Origin: a virus
Length of the DNA stretch: 23,995 nucleotides
IMG/VR virus record: IMGVR_UViG_3300025543_000214
Span: 1-23,995 of that record
Direction: 5' to 3' (one strand)
Part shown: piece after piece, positions 2,762-23,661 of the stretch
Numbering within the stretch: position 1 is the first letter of the stretch
How the letters are laid out: each line of letters starts with the position of its first letter
The notes under the pieces: model-generated
Database searches by the model: none
What the model saw: the letters and a program-made list of their open reading frames with translations, nothing else
What the model was told of the DNA's origin: nothing
Position numbers and translations under genes: made by a program

Positions 2762-3405
2762 TATGCTGTATCCCTCCGCAAGCGGTCATACCTATACTGA
2801 TCTCGAGTTTGTAATCCTTCGCCCAAGTTTTTCAGCCACTGTAAGGACTCTTGGAACCTAGAGTTATAGAGGCTCATGAGATCCGGCTCACCCTTCAGGA
2901 AAGTGTAGGCCTCCACCAAACTTCCATACAGAAGGGCCAACTCGGCGTTTGTCCCTAGCCAGCTAGTGCCGTCTCCGCTCTCGGTAATCGACGTTGGCCG
3001 ATAAAAATAGTGAAGCTCCACATCATACGATGCATCCGGCGTAGGAGCTATTAGGAAGGAACTTTCATTCCAATCAGCGTAGTATTTAGGCGTTCCCGTT
3101 GTCGCTGGATTTGGCGTGTAGTCTTGAAGAGCCGTAACTTGCTTGTACAGCAGAAACTCTTTGCTTGAATTATTGATTACGCTTAAAGAGTTTTGCGCCA
3201 AAAAGTCCGTAGGCTTTGAAAGATACTGATTTCCAGAAGTAAGATTGCCAGAAACGTTTTTGCGGAAAACATCAAGCTGACATTCTTTAAGAATGCGTTC
3301 TTCCGCGTTTACGATAAAACGAGACAAGTTGCTTACGAACGTGGTTTCAGTGCTTTGTACGTAGTCCTGTATCGCTGTTTTCAGTGTCGTAAATGTATAG
3401 GCCAT
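2761..3405 (-). CDS. Head-tail adaptor (SU10-adaptor-like)
   Basis: A 214-residue protein matching the general pattern of phage adaptor or head-to-tail connector proteins. It has an N-terminal helical part (TFTTLKTAIQDYVQST then FIVNAEERILKECQLD, residues 4-45), a beta-rich centre with P-FLA, the KYYADWNESSFLIAPTPD segment (about 106-123) and a YRP motif, then a C-terminal helical part with LGTNAELALLYGSLVEAYTF. In such proteins the helices pack on the portal ring and form the neck of short-tailed virions. It lies between two other conserved neck proteins, which supports this. Its start lies one base from the next gene. The exact family (SU10 adaptor or tail tubular protein A type) should be confirmed by profile search. 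Confidence 0.7.
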   Translation of the reverse strand: MAYTFTTLKTAIQDYVQSTETTFVSNLSRFIVNAEERILKECQLDVFRKNVSGNLTSGNQYLSKPTDFLAQNSLSVINNSSKEFLLYKQVTALQDYTPNPATTGTPKYYADWNESSFLIAPTPDASYDVELHYFYRPTSITESGDGTSWLGTNAELALLYGSLVEAYTFLKGEPDLMSLYNSRFQESLQWLKNLGEGLQTRDQYRYDRLRRDTA

Positions 3406-8146: not shown

Positions 8147-9016
8147 TCATTTCACGTATTTAGCATATTCCTCAAGCGGCACGTTCAGCCTCTTGGCTAT
8201 AGCTACCTGAGATGGGGTTAACCGCACAGTTTTCCGTCCACTCTTTTTGCGGGATGCGGAAGATTCAGCCGACGCAACTTTTCTTCCCCCGTTTGATTTA
8301 GCCCTAGAATCGAATTTATTCGGAAACTCGATTCTAAGCCTATTATCAATTTCAGCATAATATTCATCCGATGTCGGGTCAAACCCTTCATCTTCGACCA
8401 TACGGCGATGAATACCAAAAGCGGCGTATGTCATAACTTCGTCTTGACCAAACCACTCGTTTTCTTGCGCCCACTTTTCCGCTTTCGGATCGGGCGCTGG
8501 CGGCGGCGCCGCTCGTGGAGCGGCCTGCGGTGCCGGCGCTGCTTCTCGCTGGACCTGAACAGAAGACTCTTTAGAAGACCTTGCCGTGGTTTTCTGTAGA
8601 GTCAGCTCCGCCAAAACCTCCTGTGCCTCAACGAGCTTGTCTATGTCTCCTGTTTCGTGGGCCTCCTTGAGAACGCGTTTTGCTGTCTCAAGTTCGCTAG
8701 AAACCCGGCTTTCAAACTGCTCAAGATAGTTCTTATCCAGAGCATCCATGCGGCTTTTAAGATCCGCATTTTCTCTCTGAATATTCTTTGCGTATTCAAT
8801 CGCACTCTGTTTCTGCCGCTCTTCCTCACGGAATCGCTTGGTTAACTCGTTAATGCGAGACTTAACGCCAGAACTGTAATCCTCCAGTTCTCCTTCGTCC
8901 GCCGTGTCCGCTTCAGGCGCGGCGTTTGCTTCTTCAGCACTGTCCTCAGAGGACAGATTTACATCAACCGAATCCTCTTCGGTGTCTCCAACGTCAATAT
9001 CAGCTTCAATAGGCAT
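8147..9016 (-). CDS. Capsid scaffolding protein
   Basis: A 289-residue, highly charged protein. The first 48 residues are very acidic (Asp/Glu-rich). Residues of about 50-145 are a long coiled coil (RINELTKRFREEERQKQS, then ADLKSRMDALDKNYLEQ). A Pro/Ala-rich linker spans about 158-175. A conserved acidic-aromatic part follows (WAQENEWFGQDEVMTYAAFG), and the C-terminal 60 residues are basic, ending in LTPSQVAIAKRLNVPLEEYAKYVK. This order (acidic head, coiled coil, basic C-terminal capsid-binding end) is typical of phage scaffolding proteins, which bind capsid subunits during procapsid assembly and then leave. It is located shortly before the capsid gene. No protease domain is seen. Confidence 0.8.
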   Translation of the reverse strand: MPIEADIDVGDTEEDSVDVNLSSEDSAEEANAAPEADTADEGELEDYSSGVKSRINELTKRFREEERQKQSAIEYAKNIQRENADLKSRMDALDKNYLEQFESRVSSELETAKRVLKEAHETGDIDKLVEAQEVLAELTLQKTTARSSKESSVQVQREAAPAPQAAPRAAPPPAPDPKAEKWAQENEWFGQDEVMTYAAFGIHRRMVEDEGFDPTSDEYYAEIDNRLRIEFPNKFDSRAKSNGGRKVASAESSASRKKSGRKTVRLTPSQVAIAKRLNVPLEEYAKYVK

Positions 9017-10706: not shown

Positions 10707-10924
10707 CAGTACATCTTGACTTTCCGGCCACCGTGCTTGGGCATCACAGCCCCGCACCCGTTAGTCTTAACTGTATAGCTACCACCAACGGCTCTTTTGG
10801 TCTTGTTGCCCCAGTTCTTAGCGCCAACCTTGCGGCACTTAGCTATCGCTCCGGAAGCATACGCAGACGGAAACACTTTATAGCGAGCCTTAACTTTTCG
10901 ATAACAAGCGTCTTTCGTAGCCAT
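10706..10924 (-). CDS. Small basic Cys-containing protein
   Basis: Start placed at 10924, where ATG overlaps the stop of the upstream gene (TGATG); the frame extends 4 codons further without support. The protein has 72 residues. Its core, MATKDACYRKVKARYKVFPS followed by AYASGAIAKCRKVGAKNWGN, is a family I recognise from phages and giant viruses, function unknown. Two conserved Cys (7 and about 30) and high Lys/Arg content stand out; a Gly-Cys-Gly lies near the C-terminus. Nucleic-acid binding is inferred only from charge. Confidence 0.6.
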   Translation of the reverse strand: MATKDACYRKVKARYKVFPSAYASGAIAKCRKVGAKNWGNKTKRAVGGSYTVKTNGCGAVMPKHGGRKVKMY

Positions 10925-11223
10925 CAGCACTTCCACCTTCTACGAGCCTGCCGAATCCGCGAGTTGGGATCATTACGCGTCTTGGCAGAACTACGTTTGA
11001 GTTGGCCCAAGGAACGAGCGCAGTAACTCTTCCGACGTTTTGCCGCCGCGCTTCCCTTTTTAACCTTTCCAGTGACTGCTGTTTTAAGCTTGGAACCAGG
11101 GTTGGCCTTGCGATAGGCACGAACACCTTTCTTGGTCATACCCGCACCGCTCTTGGTGGGACGGTAGTTTGCGCCCTTACCCTTAGTAGTGCGGCGTATA
11201 GCCTTGGCTCGTGTTCTAGCCAT
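10924..11223 (-). CDS. Highly basic protein directly downstream of the parS-like site
   Basis: A 99-residue protein with very high Arg/Lys content. Conserved-looking segments are KSGAGMTKKGVRAYRKANPG (about 24-43), SKLKTAVTGKVKKGSAAAKR and RRKSYCARSLGQLK, ending RRRWKC. This pattern resembles a small family of unknown function in marine and large viruses (I recall DUF6321, not certain). Its ATG has no Shine-Dalgarno site: the space where one would lie is filled by a 16-bp palindrome identical to the parS consensus. It may bind DNA or be packaged with it. Confidence 0.65.
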   Translation of the reverse strand: MARTRAKAIRRTTKGKGANYRPTKSGAGMTKKGVRAYRKANPGSKLKTAVTGKVKKGSAAAKRRKSYCARSLGQLKRSSAKTRNDPNSRIRQARRRWKC

Positions 11224-11225
11224 TT

Positions 11226-11241
11226 TGTTTCACGTGAAACA
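11226..11241. promoter_or_regulatory. parS-like ParB-binding site, perfect consensus
   Basis: The sequence TGTTTCACGTGAAACA is a perfect 16-bp palindrome identical to the consensus chromosomal parS site bound by ParB (Spo0J) proteins of Caulobacter, Bacillus and many other bacteria. It fills the 18-base gap between the TAA of the 224-residue protein gene and the ATG of the basic protein gene, leaving only two bases. Identity to parS is seen directly; ParB binding is inferred. No parA or parB gene lies in the window, so a host ParB or a phage ParB elsewhere would be needed. Confidence 0.8.
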
Positions 11242-11916
11242 TTACTGTTTCCCACTATACAAATTATCAAACGTCACAGACGGATCCATGTAGCTTCCGT
11301 CAGACTCTGCATTATGTGTCCACTGACTCGGCTTAAAGTCGGGGGCTCCTTCACCTGTCTCCCACAAAGCGGGACTCGTTGCTCTTACCCGGTTATTAGG
11401 TAACGCAACGATATTTCCTGTCCAATCTCCAGCGTCCGTAAGCTCAATCACATGACTTTGCTTATGCTGGGCCGGATCATCAGCAATAGATGATCCGGTA
11501 TAATCAACGGTGAACATATACTTACCTGTATAAAAATCTCCGTCAATCTTACAAATCCAAGGACTAGAACTAGTCCTATCATACTGTATGACCGCGTGAT
11601 CTCGAGAACTACAGTCCCAAGGCTGCGCGTGGTGAGTCACCATTCTTTCTGGCCACTTTTCTAGCGGCGTGTCGGCCACGAGGGCGGTGATAGGCATTCT
11701 GGCCCACATCGCGCCCCCGTGTATGTTTTCCTCGTCCGTATCATCGCTTTCGCAACCCGTAAAGACTAGCTGAAAGCTAAGACATCGATCTGGAATCGTT
11801 GTTACGGCTATCGCCATGGCATGGAGAAACTCTCCATGGTATTGCTCATGATTATGAGTAAATTCTTTTCGCACCCAGCAGTGAAAATGCGGGATGTTGC
11901 TTTGAAGATATGGCAT
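11242..11916 (-). CDS. Conserved phage protein of unknown function
   Basis: A 224-residue, probably globular protein rich in Trp, His and Asp. Segments are NIPHFHCWVRKEFTHNHEQY (7-26), FLHAMAIAVTTIPDRCLSFQ, GAMWARMPITALV (about 68-80), VTHHAQPWDCSSRDHAVIQY and YMFTVDYTGSSIADDP. I recognise the family from other marine phages, where it also lies near the portal, but no function is known to me. Three Cys and many His could bind metal, though no standard motif is formed. Its start overlaps the upstream stop by one base (TAATG). Confidence 0.6.
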   Translation of the reverse strand: MPYLQSNIPHFHCWVRKEFTHNHEQYHGEFLHAMAIAVTTIPDRCLSFQLVFTGCESDDTDEENIHGGAMWARMPITALVADTPLEKWPERMVTHHAQPWDCSSRDHAVIQYDRTSSSPWICKIDGDFYTGKYMFTVDYTGSSIADDPAQHKQSHVIELTDAGDWTGNIVALPNNRVRATSPALWETGEGAPDFKPSQWTHNAESDGSYMDPSVTFDNLYSGKQ

Positions 11917-12449: not shown

Positions 12450-14852
12450 TTACTCTCCTCTTCCTGCTGTACCCTGGCGGATACGCTCACGGTTAACCTC
12501 GGCACGCAACATCGCGATATCTTCTTGCGAGTCGATCTTTTCAGCGGCCATCTCTTCTTTAGCGGCTTCTTTCGCCATGTCGAAGACAAGACGCTGGTCA
12601 AACTCGTTGGTCCTACGCTGCAAGTCCGCTGCTTTGATATCCAACTCCTTGGACCGAAGCTCGACCAAGGGGTCTACTTCGCCCTCTGGCGGGGGCATAA
12701 GCGCCGCCATGACCTCTTCGGTATACTGAGCAATCAACTCTGCAACACGTGCCTCTACATCCACCGGAGGCGGTTGCTGGCCTGCTTGGAGGGACTGCTC
12801 AAGCATTACACGCATCTCCGCATCGGCAACGCCCCTAGCCTTCAAAGCAATATGCTCGCACAAATGCGCTTGCAACAGCGCAAATACGGGCGGAGACGCC
12901 GCCGGAACCGGCGTTTTCATGAAGATAATATGCGCCGTCATGTGCGCGTCATGATCCTGCGTCGGGAACGCCTGCAAGTTTTGCTGAATAATCGCTCGAG
13001 CATTCTCAATCGACGGATCAGTAGGCTGGGGCGGTTGCGGCGTGGGTAAAAGCGCCTCAATGTTATGAACGCCTATTGCCTCGTAGATCCTACGATAAGC
13101 TTCATACAGATTATGCATCTCCGGATTCGTCTGCGCCAACTGAAGCTGCGTTTGTGCGAGCGCCAGCCTTTGTGACATGGAGTAAATGTTCGGATCAGAG
13201 ACAGGTATAACATCGACACGCTCATCAAAATCTGCCTGCTTGATTGTTGCTTCGGCACCGTACACATCATACGGATACATGGGCGGCAGCGATTCCGCAA
13301 AAACGCGAGCCAGCATCCTGAACTCTTGTTTCTGTGCGTAATGAAGCCGCTTGTGGATTGCAGACATCACCTTTGAACCACGCTCAAGAAGAGCAACCGT
13401 CGTTCCAACAGCAGCCTGCTGGTTTCCGTCCCCCACCTGAAGATCTGCAATCGCCGCGAAACGACGACCAGCGTCCACGATAAACCCAAGAAGGGTCATC
13501 AGGGTTTGGCTAGGCTCCTTGTAAGGAAGCGGCATGATGCTTTCTCGTAAAGCACCACCGGGAACATCAATATCACGAAACTCGCCAGGAGACAGAGGCT
13601 CATCAGAGTCACGAATCCTAATACCACGAGCCTTAAAGCCAGCAGGAAGGTTAGCAAGAGTGCCTGCATCGATCAGTTGCCTCAAGATAGATGTTGCAGA
13701 ACGACCCAGCCCACCAATCATGTGTAAAAGACCGAAGCCGTAGAAGCCTAGACCGGGCAAGAACTTGTAGTGCGAGAAGTACTGAATCTTCTTGTAGTAC
13801 TCGTCACCATCTCGCCAGTTTCTCCGGATCGCAAGAACCTTTCCGCTGCCCTCATCAATCGTCACGATGTAAGGAAGCTTGATTCCTGTCTGCTCTCCAT
13901 CAATCGGACTCACATGTTCAAAGCCCGGTAGATCAAGATCCGTATGAATCTCCAGAAGAGTGCAGTCCTGTTCTTCGCCGCCAGCGTGTTCTATGCCTTG
14001 AAGCTCGCGCTCCTTTGAACGAACCTCGTCGTCAGACCCATATGGGGTGATGTCAATCTCACGGAAGAACCCGGCCGCTTGATTCTTTCGCACGTCATTC
14101 GTGTTCATCCGGATCACGTGGGTTACACGCGAAGCAGATGAAAGATCCGTAGCGTTGTACGGAACCAAGAGATCGTCAGCCGGCACAAACTTGGAGACAG
14201 CTCGGTCCAAGATGTCGTCAAAGTAAATTTTCTTGAACGCGCTGCCGGCCAGTGGCAGATAGAACAGCAAACGATCCATCTCGGGATCATACTCGTCCAT
14301 CACATGCGTAATCTGAAAGTTCATAAACTCCTGAACACGCTGCGACTGCATCTCTACGTCCGGAGTGGCCGCGCCAACAACCTGGGTCCGCACGGGACCG
14401 GAACTGGGTAGCAATTCCTTGTAGGCTTGTGCCTGAAACTGTGTGACTGCTTCCGCAATCAGGGGGTGCGTGACGCCGCTAGACCCACGGAAGGGCTCGT
14501 CTCGATGCTCGTACTTGATGCCTAGAAGATCCAGACCCTCGGTGTAAGCGTCCTCCCAATCCTGTCTGCTGCCCTTGTCGTCCTCATAGTAGCCGATAAG
14601 CTCCATGGCGACTTCCATGAGGACGCGCTCGTCAAGCACTTCGGCTAGGTTTGCATCGGGTTCTGCCTGAAGCTCTTCTGCTATGGCGTCTTCAAAGTTG
14701 AAAAGAACGGACCCATCTTCCTCTTCAATGATTTCAATCGGGTCCTCGTTCTCGTCCTCTTCAACCTCAATCTCATCGTCCTCAAGATCTTCAACGGGCA
14801 TCCCTTGAGACGGCATAGACGTGTCGATAAGTGAAATCGGTTCTCTTGCCAT
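12450..14852 (-). CDS. Portal protein (SU10/p19-like)
   Basis: An 800-residue protein that forms the dodecameric ring at the capsid vertex through which DNA enters and leaves. The first 60 residues are very acidic. Conserved portal segments follow: WEDAYTEGLDLLGIKYEHRD, EPFRGSSGVTHPLIAEAVTQ, a FY-PLAGSAFKKIYFD region, then VTHVIRMN, FLPGLGFYGFGLLHMIGGLG with SATSILRQLIDAGTLANLPA, and GNQQAAVGTTVALLERGSKV. The last 230 residues are helical and Gln/Glu/Ala-rich and could form the barrel or crown. The size is at the upper end for portals but usual for this marine family. It overlaps the holin gene stop by one base. Confidence 0.85.
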   Translation of the reverse strand: MAREPISLIDTSMPSQGMPVEDLEDDEIEVEEDENEDPIEIIEEEDGSVLFNFEDAIAEELQAEPDANLAEVLDERVLMEVAMELIGYYEDDKGSRQDWEDAYTEGLDLLGIKYEHRDEPFRGSSGVTHPLIAEAVTQFQAQAYKELLPSSGPVRTQVVGAATPDVEMQSQRVQEFMNFQITHVMDEYDPEMDRLLFYLPLAGSAFKKIYFDDILDRAVSKFVPADDLLVPYNATDLSSASRVTHVIRMNTNDVRKNQAAGFFREIDITPYGSDDEVRSKERELQGIEHAGGEEQDCTLLEIHTDLDLPGFEHVSPIDGEQTGIKLPYIVTIDEGSGKVLAIRRNWRDGDEYYKKIQYFSHYKFLPGLGFYGFGLLHMIGGLGRSATSILRQLIDAGTLANLPAGFKARGIRIRDSDEPLSPGEFRDIDVPGGALRESIMPLPYKEPSQTLMTLLGFIVDAGRRFAAIADLQVGDGNQQAAVGTTVALLERGSKVMSAIHKRLHYAQKQEFRMLARVFAESLPPMYPYDVYGAEATIKQADFDERVDVIPVSDPNIYSMSQRLALAQTQLQLAQTNPEMHNLYEAYRRIYEAIGVHNIEALLPTPQPPQPTDPSIENARAIIQQNLQAFPTQDHDAHMTAHIIFMKTPVPAASPPVFALLQAHLCEHIALKARGVADAEMRVMLEQSLQAGQQPPPVDVEARVAELIAQYTEEVMAALMPPPEGEVDPLVELRSKELDIKAADLQRRTNEFDQRLVFDMAKEAAKEEMAAEKIDSQEDIAMLRAEVNRERIRQGTAGRGE

Positions 14853-16183: not shown

Positions 16184-17413
16184 CTATTTTCTCCACTCAA
16201 GCCCCAGGAACGCTTCGTGAGCCGCGTTGGAAGCGCCGAATACCTGATAGTCCTGAAGTGGATTAGACAAACTACGGTTATCCGTCAGAGACTCTTTGGG
16301 AAAAAACCCCCGCACATCCTGAATGCTGGGGCCACGTTCTATTTTTGCTCCGAGAAGATTCATAACGACGAGCGTCGTAGTCTGAGACGCCGCATTGTAT
16401 CGCTGACTTGGCGCAATCTTCTTTACAACCTTCTGGGCAGCGACCTTTACCTTCTCTTGGCGCGTCTTTGGCTTTGGTGCGGGAGCCTCGGCTTGCGGAC
16501 CACTGTCCGTTTCCTGTTCAGATGACTCCGCAGTCGTCTCTTCCTGACCTCGAGGTTCGGGTTCTGGACCAGAATCTGCCTCTACCTCGGCCTCAATCTC
16601 GGCTTCTGCCTGTTCCTCCTCGCGCCGCTGCTCCGGTTCCGGTGACGAAGCAGGCTCCACGGTCGGTGGCGGAGGCTCATCTGGTGACGGAGGCGGTCCC
16701 ATGTCACTCTGCTCCGGAGAAGAGGACGGTTCAGAAGAGGATGACGGAGCCACGGGGCCAGGTGGCGGAGGCTCTGGAGAGGGAGCTAGGGCCACCTGAA
16801 CCTCGTGGCGAGCAATCTGGTTCAAGACCTGTTGCTCAACTACATCCTGATACGTAAACGTAAGTGAAGGCTCTGAGAACTTTGGGCCGAAAAATCCAGA
16901 ATGAAACCCGGCATCCACGCCGAATAACTCAAACTCCCCCGTCAGTATGCTAAAGCTGTTTTCCGAAACCGTGTCTTCAAAGCTGAACGTCCGAAGACCA
17001 CCAAAATCCAGTTCAATCTCACGCTCAAACTTCTCAACCACCGTGTTCGTATCATCAAACAACGCTATCGTAACGTTAAAGATGTCCCGGCAGTCGCTGC
17101 TCTGCGTGATGCTGGTACACGTAGCAAGAACCGCGTTCGACGGATGACTGTCCACGGTCACTGAACTGTTCAGCGTAAACCCACGACGCACCTCATCTTC
17201 CGTCAAAGGCACATCAAAACTACTCGTATACGTTCCACCTCCGGCAGTAGCGTTGCCAGTGCAGAACTCTCCTGCCGTACAGCCTGTCGTTGTCGAAGAC
17301 GTGGTGCTTCCGCTTGTCGTGAACGCAGACATGTCCGGAAGAACATTGTCCGTGGTCACTGTTTCAGCAGCCGCCGTCGAACAAAACAGAAGAAACGCTA
17401 CAAGCCAGCGCAT
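16184..17413 (-). CDS. Exported Pro/Glu-rich protein
   Basis: A 409-residue protein with a clear signal peptide (MRWLVAFLLFCSTAAA, cleavage likely after residue 16). Residues 20-205 form a beta-rich domain with four Cys (45, 51, 99, 108) that could form disulfides. Residues 210-315 are low-complexity, rich in Pro, Glu and Ser (PSPEPPPPGPVAPSSSSEPS and similar) and should be extended. The C-terminal 80 residues are conserved-looking (RYNAASQTTTLVVMNLLGAK, GFFPKESLTDNRSL, and a final LGLEWRK). The P/E-rich stretch could span the periplasm or cell wall. Exported proteins are unusual in a late structural operon; function unknown. Confidence 0.65.
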   Translation of the reverse strand: MRWLVAFLLFCSTAAAETVTTDNVLPDMSAFTTSGSTTSSTTTGCTAGEFCTGNATAGGGTYTSSFDVPLTEDEVRRGFTLNSSVTVDSHPSNAVLATCTSITQSSDCRDIFNVTIALFDDTNTVVEKFEREIELDFGGLRTFSFEDTVSENSFSILTGEFELFGVDAGFHSGFFGPKFSEPSLTFTYQDVVEQQVLNQIARHEVQVALAPSPEPPPPGPVAPSSSSEPSSSPEQSDMGPPPSPDEPPPPTVEPASSPEPEQRREEEQAEAEIEAEVEADSGPEPEPRGQEETTAESSEQETDSGPQAEAPAPKPKTRQEKVKVAAQKVVKKIAPSQRYNAASQTTTLVVMNLLGAKIERGPSIQDVRGFFPKESLTDNRSLSNPLQDYQVFGASNAAHEAFLGLEWRK

Positions 17414-18092: not shown

Positions 18093-19553
18093 CTAATAAT
18101 ACTGTCGGGGATGTACCAAGGGCGAAGGTTCGTCGTCTTCCTCGTCAGTGTCAAGGCGAACAAAGCCGCCCTTACGGTATCTGATAAGCGCCATCGACAT
18201 GCTGTCACAGTAGTCATCGTAGTCGCCATTCGGAAAAGCCGCGCACTCGTCAATCACCTCTTCCGCAAATCTCTTCTCCGGAGCCCACACCCTCCCAGAC
18301 TCAAACATCGGCGCAACCGTATGCATCCGCGTATGCTTGTCATTACCCCTGGACGGCGTGTAATTGATAACCGGAATGCCCATCGCCCGTAACTCGTCCG
18401 TGAGCGGTGTACCACTGGCCTTGGCCTCAATCAAAACCATGTCCGGATCCCAGTACTTGTACTCCTCCATCGCATTCGCCTTCAGTTCCGGAAAGTCCCA
18501 ACGACCTCTCTTCGCGTCCAGCAAAATGATGTTGTCCGGGCCACCGTCCAGGGGCTTGAAAACACCCCACGTCGTAATCGCAGAATAGTCCGCCGTCTCC
18601 TTCTTTGAGAACGCCGTATCATACGACTGCATGATGTAACTAATCTGTGGAACAGAATCCTTCTCCCACTTCTTCCACCACTCCTTCTTGATAATCGCGC
18701 CTTCCTCGGCAACAGGATTCTGCTGCCATTGCGCGTTCCACTTGCCCAAGGACAACGAAGCCTTGACCCTTAATAGCTCATCCTTCTTCCAAAACTCAGG
18801 CCACAAAAGATTGCCGCTCGGCAGAATCGCCGGAAACTCCACAATGTCCCACTGATCAGACATCGCATCAGAAGTCTGCGCCTTGATCAACTTGCCGGTC
18901 AGATCCTTCAAAGACCACCGCGTCATGACCACAACTATCGAACCACCAGGCTGCAAACGCTGACGAGGACCAGACGTATACCACTCATACGCACTCTCCA
19001 TCGCCGTCTCAGACAACGCATCCTGCTCCGAATGCGGATCATCAATAATCAACAAGTCCGCACCACGGCCCGTGATCGCACCACCAACACCAGCCGCGTA
19101 ATACTCACCGCCCTGACCCGTTTCCCAGCGACCAGCAGCCTTCGAGTCCGCACGCAGATCAACCTCCGGAAAGATCTGCTTGTAAACATCCAGCTCCATA
19201 AGGTTCCTGACCTTACGACCAAACCGTACCGCAAGCTCCGCCGTATGCGTCGTCTGAATGATCTTCAATTCCGGATTCTTACCAATCAACCACGCCGGCA
19301 ATAAATAACTCGCGAACTCACTCTTCGTGTGTCGCGGCGGCATATTGACAATGATCCGTGAACCGGGGTTCTGCGACAGCTTCTCAAATTGCTGCGCAAT
19401 TTGCTTATGATGGCTCCCCTCAATGAAACCATCATAAACATGCTTCACAAACGCCATAAAGTCCTCGCGAGCCTTCTCCCGTACAGAAAGCGTCCGCTTC
19501 GCCTGCTCTAAAGCAAGGACTTCGCGCAAAACCTCATCAGAAGCGTTCAACAT
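18093..19553 (-). CDS. terL: Terminase large subunit
   Basis: The ATPase-nuclease that pumps DNA into the procapsid. The frame is open to 19592, but the ATG at 19553 is the more likely start (MLNASDEVLREVLALEQAKR); the 13 extra residues overlap the promoter region of the divergent gene. Length is then 486. The ATPase has a Walker A-like PPRHTKS (72-78), a Walker B LLIIDDP (167-173) and a TRW coupling motif (211-213). The nuclease has SYDTAF with Asp312, LIEAKASG with Glu376, and DYDDYCDS with Asp447 and Asp450. This arrangement is that of an RNaseH-like nuclease. No small-subunit gene is recognisable here. It starts the leftward operon. Confidence 0.9.
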   Translation of the reverse strand: MLNASDEVLREVLALEQAKRTLSVREKAREDFMAFVKHVYDGFIEGSHHKQIAQQFEKLSQNPGSRIIVNMPPRHTKSEFASYLLPAWLIGKNPELKIIQTTHTAELAVRFGRKVRNLMELDVYKQIFPEVDLRADSKAAGRWETGQGGEYYAAGVGGAITGRGADLLIIDDPHSEQDALSETAMESAYEWYTSGPRQRLQPGGSIVVVMTRWSLKDLTGKLIKAQTSDAMSDQWDIVEFPAILPSGNLLWPEFWKKDELLRVKASLSLGKWNAQWQQNPVAEEGAIIKKEWWKKWEKDSVPQISYIMQSYDTAFSKKETADYSAITTWGVFKPLDGGPDNIILLDAKRGRWDFPELKANAMEEYKYWDPDMVLIEAKASGTPLTDELRAMGIPVINYTPSRGNDKHTRMHTVAPMFESGRVWAPEKRFAEEVIDECAAFPNGDYDDYCDSMSMALIRYRKGGFVRLDTDEEDDEPSPLVHPRQYY

Positions 19554-19597
19554 GTGTATTCTATATACTACGAATAAAGCAAAAGGAACCACGAACC

Positions 19598-20743: not shown

Positions 20744-20776
20744 GCGAATATATGCATTTTTTTAAAATTATTTTTC

Positions 20777-20825
20777 GGGCGAGCGATCGGGCGAGCTGAT
20801 CGGGCGAGCGATCGGGCGAGCGATC
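20777..20825. repeat. Four tandem GGGCGAGCGATC repeats beside an AT-rich tract
   Basis: Four consecutive copies of GGGCGAGCGATC (the second has one extra base: GGGCGAGCTGATC) occupy 20777-20825. Directly to the left, 20748-20776 is nearly all A/T. Direct iterons beside an AT-rich tract resemble replication origins, but they may only be part of the TCGGG/CCCGA-rich intergenic DNA. No replication gene is near. Confidence 0.7.
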
Positions 20826-20979
20826 GGGCGCGGCCGGGCTGGGGCGGCGCGGCCGGGCTTGAGCTTGGCGCGTTATACTACTAACGCGCCCCAGCGCCGG
20901 GCGGTAGCCTGGCGGCGACCTGGACCGACCCGACCCCGACCCGACCCGAGCCGATCTCGAGCCCGACCCGACCGGGCAC
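20826..20979. repeat. GC-rich mosaic intergenic DNA with hairpin
   Basis: No gene is supported here, although long frames cross it. It contains the inverted repeat GGCGCGTTA / TAACGCGCC (20867-20875 and 20882-20890) with TATACT in its loop region, the 17-mer GCCCCAGCGCCGGGCGG that recurs near 21796, and several CCCGA pentamers (20920-20975). Together with the iterons and the terminator, it makes up the 20667-21034 gene-free stretch. Confidence 0.6.
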
Positions 20980-21735: not shown

Positions 21736-21872
21736 GTGCCGGCGGCCAGGCTCGAGCCTGGCTTGAACCTAGTTCGGGCCCGGCTATCGCCCGGCCCCAG
21801 CGCCGGGCGGCGGGGCTCGAGACCGGGTCAGCTCCCGACCCGACCCGACCCGACCCGACCCGACGACTGGGC
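21736..21872. repeat. GC-rich intergenic DNA with six CCCGA repeats
   Basis: No gene supported. It has a second copy of GCCCCAGCGCCGGGCGG (from about 21795) and six uninterrupted CCCGA pentamers at 21834-21863. Several short inverted repeats (for example CCAGGCTCGAGCCTGG near 21746) precede them. It lies between two convergent terminators. Confidence 0.75.
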
Positions 21873-23430: not shown

Positions 23431-23561
23431 CATCGGGGGGGCGGCGCGACTATCGTCGCCCCCTTACCTCCCTGCCGGGCGGCCGGGCTCGAGGCCCGGC
23501 GATTCCTCGCCCGGGACTAACGGCCCAGGTGCCCTTGCCTGGGCCGTCTTTTGTTGAATCC
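23431..23561 (+). terminator. Post-gene hairpins, with terminator at 23520-23552
   Basis: At 23520-23547 a perfect 10-bp stem ACGGCCCAGG / CCTGGGCCGT with an 8-base loop is followed by CTTTTGTT, an intrinsic terminator for the rightward unit 22880-23430. Before it, GGGGGCGGCG / CGTCGCCCCC (about 23436-23462, with G-T pairs) gives another hairpin without a T-run. No gene is supported in this stretch. Confidence 0.7.
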
Positions 23562-23660
23562 CCGACCCGAACCCGACCCAGCGCCCGACCCAGCGCCCGA
23601 CCCGACTTGGCCCCGACCCGAACCCGACCCGAACCCGACCCGAACCCGACCCGAACCCGA
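23562..23660. repeat. CCCGA-based tandem array
   Basis: Two copies of the 12-mer CCCGACCCAGCG (23572-23595) are followed by four perfect copies of the 11-mer CCCGACCCGAA (23612-23655) and a last CCCGA. The open frames crossing it on both strands (Arg/Val/Gly or Pro/Asp/Arg) are products of the repeat, not genes. It directly precedes a promoter. Confidence 0.85.
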
Positions 23661-23661
23661 C

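Follow-up and report, generated by a model that had tools for sequence, protein, structure and literature searches.

Introduction

On binding parS, ParB forms a closed, CTP-dependent clamp that slides to the DNA on either side; on chromosomes, the resulting ParB-parS complexes interact with ParA and bring in SMC (PMC7022226, PMC7053999). Centromeres bound by ParB also occur on phage DNA. P1 and extrachromosomal mycobacterial prophages carry ParABS cassettes with their own ParA, ParB and parS, which serve lysogenic maintenance (PMC7157519). In the engineered ParB/parS labels of phage P22 and others, parS on phage DNA is bound by ParB during infection, but these labels are artificial and use a plasmid ParB, and thus differ from a natural capture of a host centromere (PMC4697819). 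We found no report of a natural chromosomal-type parS on virulent phages in the literature searched, which contained few subscription journals and no preprints.

Here we describe a parS on the DNA of a marine podovirus. The stretch analysed (the window) is an IMG/VR virus record of 23,995 bases that covers part of a phage genome. Its 16-bp palindrome is identical to that of the chromosomal ParABS systems of the Spo0J-Soj family (B. subtilis, Caulobacter, Pseudomonas). The likeness goes further: some variants fall at positions tolerated in chromosomal sites (5 and 12, and the ends), and several sites often lie within a few kb. In contrast to the chromosomal systems, the phage site is far from any oriC, on a probably virulent phage without parAB, and ParB would be supplied in trans by the host. 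In contrast to the P1 and mycobacteriophage cassettes, no ParB was found in the phage's family, which is lytic where it has been studied. In our view this marine podovirus, which is probably virulent and has no ParB that we could recognise, very probably carries in cis a genuine parS of the chromosomal type that loads the ParB-CTP clamp of the host.

Results

An exact parS between two late genes

The features that concern us are these:

10924..11223, minus strand: late gene downstream of parS, 99 aa (DUF6321/PHROG 10346); its ATG lies two bases past parS
11226..11241, no strand: parS TGTTTCACGTGAAACA, a perfect 16-bp palindrome, the chromosomal ParB-binding consensus
11242..11916, minus strand: late gene upstream of parS, 224 aa (PHROG 3704); its TAA stop abuts parS
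12450..14852, minus strand: portal gene, used to assign the phage to the HTVC023P/HTVC027P-type podoviruses
18093..19592, minus strand: terminase large subunit (TerL) gene; in many relatives parS lies just upstream of TerL instead

An earlier note on this DNA had reported an exact parS consensus between two late genes, and the exact 16-mer is indeed there. TGTTTCACGTGAAACA agrees with the published parS consensus (PMC5450999), and by its sequence the 16-mer at 11226-11241 is a chromosomal-type parS. It is the sole match at three or fewer mismatches in the whole window. The gap between the two minus-strand genes is 18 bases long (11224-11241) and consists of the 16-mer followed by AA and then the ATG, just as the note had described it (16 of the 18 bases between TAA and ATG), and the note was also right that the 99-aa gene has no Shine-Dalgarno-like sequence before its ATG. 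Its chance figure of about 6e-6 per 24 kb is correct if a palindrome is counted only once at each position. Its remark that most genes of the operon overlap went slightly too far: overlaps make up roughly half of the late junctions, and the remainder are short gaps.

Phage records annotate homologues of the 224-aa gene (11242-11916, minus strand) as PurM or ferredoxin. The label looks doubtful, and the window protein has no Pfam domain.

Relatives of the phage and their hosts

Homologues of the portal, TerL, capsid and GroES genes lie in the same order in the window as in the HTVC023P/HTVC027P-type podoviruses, and by these homologues and their order the window phage is a member of this group. 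Its portal protein is 52-53% identical to those of the Pelagibacter phages HTVC027P and HTVC023P over 87-93% of the length, and 36-46% identical to those of the Roseobacter phages CRP-901/902 and Caulobacter RW-type phages. The order TerL-portal-GroES-capsid is common to the window phage and the HTVC027P/HTVC023P-type podoviruses. HTVC027P, described as obligately lytic and as having a latent period of 18 h (PMC12753301), carries a one-mismatch parS, CGTTTCACGTGAAACA, at 16412-16427. This site is also intergenic, but it lies in a 291-base gap between the terminase genes (TerS and TerL) of HTVC027P, whereas the site of the window phage lies within the late operon.

The two phages probably also differ in host. 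SAR11 genomes are A+T-rich, and because the G+C content of the window phage is 52%, its host is probably not SAR11. Portal relatives were found in many MAGs and in single-cell genomes of SAR11 and other alphaproteobacteria, all at 58% identity or less. We dropped a host assignment from these relatives and claim no host for the window phage, because MAG binning is unreliable and no relative is close.

Conservation and mobility of the site

The earlier note had proposed that the site is maintained on purpose and that its absence from close relatives would speak against this. Related phages are non-independent observations. Counts are given here for lineages made non-redundant at 95% portal identity (n = 28), in which a site was scored up to 4 kb downstream of the portal gene: 20 have an exact parS, three have one with one mismatch, one has one with two mismatches and four have none. 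All eight non-redundant lineages with a portal identity of 85% or more keep the exact site. In the closest relatives of the 224-aa gene the 16-mer stands directly 3' of the stop codon. When 20 distinct alleles of this gene were compared, four-fold sites differed by 48% on average and by up to 68%, while none of the 16 parS bases differed; these alleles were chosen for the exact site behind them, and the count over 28 lineages is the unselected figure. Thus, the 16-mer is kept while its surroundings vary, as the note had asked.

The site is also strongly enriched. There are 91 sites at two or fewer mismatches in 151 family sequences. We scored all 840 permutations of the half-site (parS included) as palindromes over 150 family loci (1.25 Mb), where parS has 73 exact copies and each of the other 839 palindromes has at most one. 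A good parS site was not found in the isolates HTVC023P, 023Pt_psg01, DSL-LC04, CRP-901/902 and Caulobacter phage RW.

Additionally, the site changes its neighbours and its place. Among relatives, the gene upstream is the 224-aa gene or one of several unrelated genes, and the gene downstream is g21, a g18-like gene or another; despite this exchange of flanking genes, the palindrome mostly stands right after a stop codon in family sequences. Of 36 sites in the wider family, 14 are no more than 300 bp upstream of TerL; others lie between TerL and the portal gene or after the portal gene. Loci L139 and L240 have three exact copies across about 8 kb, one of them within a coding sequence. In L139 (at 8553) and in the distant relative L008 (at 5103), parS lies within the coding sequence of a putative scaffold gene, a homologue of window 8147-9016, and is translated in the same reading frame as NVSRET. 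This pattern of positions suits a clamp-loading site that can act from many places, and not an operator. Judged from the sequence comparisons, the 16 bases of the window are held by selection as a 16-mer, and the note's proposal is backed by conservation, mobility, enrichment over control palindromes and host-matched variants.

Two further arrangements were seen just upstream of TerL. In four loci (L027, L101, L111 and L306) a second inverted repeat (TTGCCTAATAATTAGGCA-like) adjoins parS, and in L097 a Pseudomonas-type and a canonical parS stand side by side (310-325 and 334-349).

The source of ParB

The ParB_N domain (PF02195) is absent from 43 records that cover the family and more distant relatives and include ten complete genomes; complete HTVC027P is among these records. 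HTH_ParB (PF17762) was not found in 20 records. Searches with host ParB proteins (tblastn) gave no match in the family of the window phage; the only loci with a match were L080 and L401, one of them among about 350 phage loci and the other among 117 variant-site loci. The search for parA/parB elsewhere in the genome that the earlier note had called for was thus extended to complete relatives, and its suggestion that host ParB is used is strongly supported as reliance on a ParB that the phage does not encode.

A matching site is present in SAR11. A SAR11 single-cell genome that contains a phage of the window's family has exactly one parS, an exact one, about 1.5 kb from parB. Across the Pelagibacteraceae, 58 of 99 genomes have a parS at one mismatch or less, nearly always as a single copy. 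Variants that recur are TGTTTCACGTGAAACT and CGTTTCACGTGAAACA, of which the second is the form found in HTVC027P. SAR11, the host of HTVC027P, thus has the same parS, near parB in the genome examined, although HTVC027P is a relative with a portal 52% identical and not the window phage itself. In the scanned DNA of phages within SAR11 and other alphaproteobacterial single cells, there was no site at two or fewer mismatches.

Viral parS sites across collections

In IMG/VR the parS 16-mer occurs in at least 120 stretches, whereas complete scans for two composition-matched control palindromes gave 0 and 5. Among the matches listed, 34 clearly belong to the family of the window phage by portal, TerL or capsid identity. 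In INPHARED (50,697 GenBank phage records), exact parS is present in 286 records and two control palindromes in 0 and 0. We rejected chance or base composition as the source of the site on the basis of the permuted palindromes and these two collection-wide controls. The canonical-site records include virulent Listeria P100-type phages, phages of Lactobacillus, Bacillus, Microbacterium, Arthrobacter and Gordonia, and Roseobacter phage DSS3P8; the 87 Listeria records with parS are largely one lineage.

Some of these phages have several sites. The 5.9-kb inovirus L379 (PQ006149.1, bajarodino virus 6) has six exact copies, at 635, 662, 1414, 2857, 4096 and 5628, all intergenic and often directly behind a stop codon. 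Bacillus phage vB_BcoS-136 (L378) has four in about 1 kb, at 3001, 3835, 3871 and 3991.

The chromosomal parS of Pseudomonas is TGTTCCACGTGGAACA (PMC5450999; sites of P. aeruginosa in PMC4368675). This form occurs in 58 phage records, among which Pseudomonas is the top genus (n = 17), compared with at most six Pseudomonas phages among the 286 canonical-site records (Fisher p ~4e-10, phylogeny ignored). Because the Pseudomonas form is commonest in Pseudomonas phages, the viral variants appear to be matched to their hosts. An exception is formed by the Klebsiella jumbo phages RaK2, K64-1 and Muenster, which have TGTTCCACGTGGAACA inside a baseplate wedge gene. To our knowledge, enterobacteria generally lack a chromosomal ParB. 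Thus, some matches must have arisen by chance or from other causes.

Discussion

The conservation, mobility and enrichment of the site, the host-matched variants and the lack of ParB domains together argue for a selected parS that depends on a foreign ParB. Reliance of the window phage on a ParB encoded elsewhere is strongly supported by these comparisons, and the phage very probably captures the ParB of its host during infection. We infer both that host ParB binds the site and that the phage gains from this. Given the way in which the ParB clamp behaves on parS, a phage genome with parS should become covered with host ParB in any host that uses this sequence. We propose that, after injection, host ParB would load at the phage parS and spread from it across the flanking late genes, so that every phage genome would become a partition complex coated with ParB.

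We considered whether the palindrome could instead be an operator that happens to have the sequence of parS and through which a transcription regulator, encoded by phage or host, controls late genes. The perfect symmetry of the site and its place upstream of genes would fit this, as would the many family members in which parS stands no more than 300 bp upstream of TerL, where a late promoter could plausibly lie. However, the position relative to genes is not kept: the site follows different genes, lies within the operon and, in L139 and L008, within coding sequence. We therefore rejected an operator at a fixed position. The same 16-mer is also present in inoviruses and in unrelated phages that infect Listeria, Bacillus, actinobacteria and roseobacters, the Pseudomonas form goes with phages of Pseudomonas, and HTH_ParB was missing from the records searched, so that we regard an operator of any kind as improbable. 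Selection for an RNA hairpin or a translation or termination signal, in which structure and not sequence would matter, could account for a self-complementary 16-mer just before an ATG that lacks a Shine-Dalgarno sequence, and some relatives do show a second inverted repeat after parS, upstream of TerL. Yet the non-exact variants are one-sided changes that break pairing. The list of variants holds no compensatory pairs, which argues against a conserved RNA hairpin, and we discarded this candidate; none of the 839 other palindromes with this composition is used in this way, and sites also occur within coding sequence. We give this explanation almost no credence.

The earlier note had also raised a phage-plasmid lifestyle, in which the window would hold the centromere of a complete ParABS system of a temperate phage whose parA and parB lie beyond the 24-kb fragment. 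The window is a fragment, and phage-plasmids with their own parABS exist (PMC7157519), but this proposal found no support. The complete genomes among the 43 records lack ParB_N as well, and with no parB found we rejected a ParABS module on the same replicon. L080 and L401 were the only viral loci with parS that showed a match to host-type ParB, and the sequence is that of chromosomal and not of plasmid-type parS. The obligately lytic growth reported for HTVC027P, an isolated relative (PMC12753301), also makes the reading unlikely; we consider it very improbable, and a purely plasmid-like role for parS is unlikely. Finally, parS is common in host DNA and easily transferred, and some lineages lack it, as might be expected if it were a chance occurrence or a recent acquisition without function from a host chromosome. 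Against this, the 16 bases are unchanged next to a gene whose four-fold sites diverge by about 48%, and parS is present repeatedly after gene turnover and at new positions, which leaves this explanation with a negligible probability. Loading of host ParB at a captured parS is the reading that we retain.

How the capture of host ParB would benefit the phage can be stated only tentatively. We rate as likeliest, though with limited confidence, that ParB would position or anchor the replicating phage DNA or organise it through SMC; such SMC-driven organisation would precede packaging. A somewhat weaker candidate is that many phage copies sequester scarce host ParB, so that host segregation and division stall. 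In a SAR11-like host, the one chromosomal parS would be outnumbered by tens of phage copies. Local effects on late transcription or packaging come third and seem rather unlikely. Repression of late genes from this gap, which the earlier note had listed, is weakened because the sites of relatives occupy many different gaps or lie inside coding sequence.

With less confidence than we have in the site itself, we believe that capture of the host centromere is probably a general strategy of virulent bacterial viruses, which would recruit or sequester host ParB during their growth. This proposal would span unrelated phages of alphaproteobacteria, firmicutes, actinobacteria and pseudomonads, and inoviruses of 6 kb, in which the host-matched parS is often intergenic. 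It points to the ParB-CTP clamp as a host factor that virulent phages apparently recruit by means of a 16-base tag, and it raises the question of whether phages place and organise their own genomes in this way or cripple the segregation of the host chromosome. The idea lends itself to direct tests, since phages with a natural parS are known for B. subtilis (the phi29-like Goe1/B103), P. putida (vB_PpuM-Amme-3) and Ruegeria, and a SAR11 isolate exists as well. The variant that a phage carries may also predict which parS its host uses, the canonical or the Pseudomonas-type one.

Elsewhere in the window, G+C-rich tandem repeats with units of 5-12 bases (CCCGA/CCGAC-type, TCGGGCGAGCGA) occur at 20775-20830, 20925-20973, 21834-21864 and 23561-23661. 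They are scattered through the region upstream of TerL and between the plus-strand genes, which are divergent.
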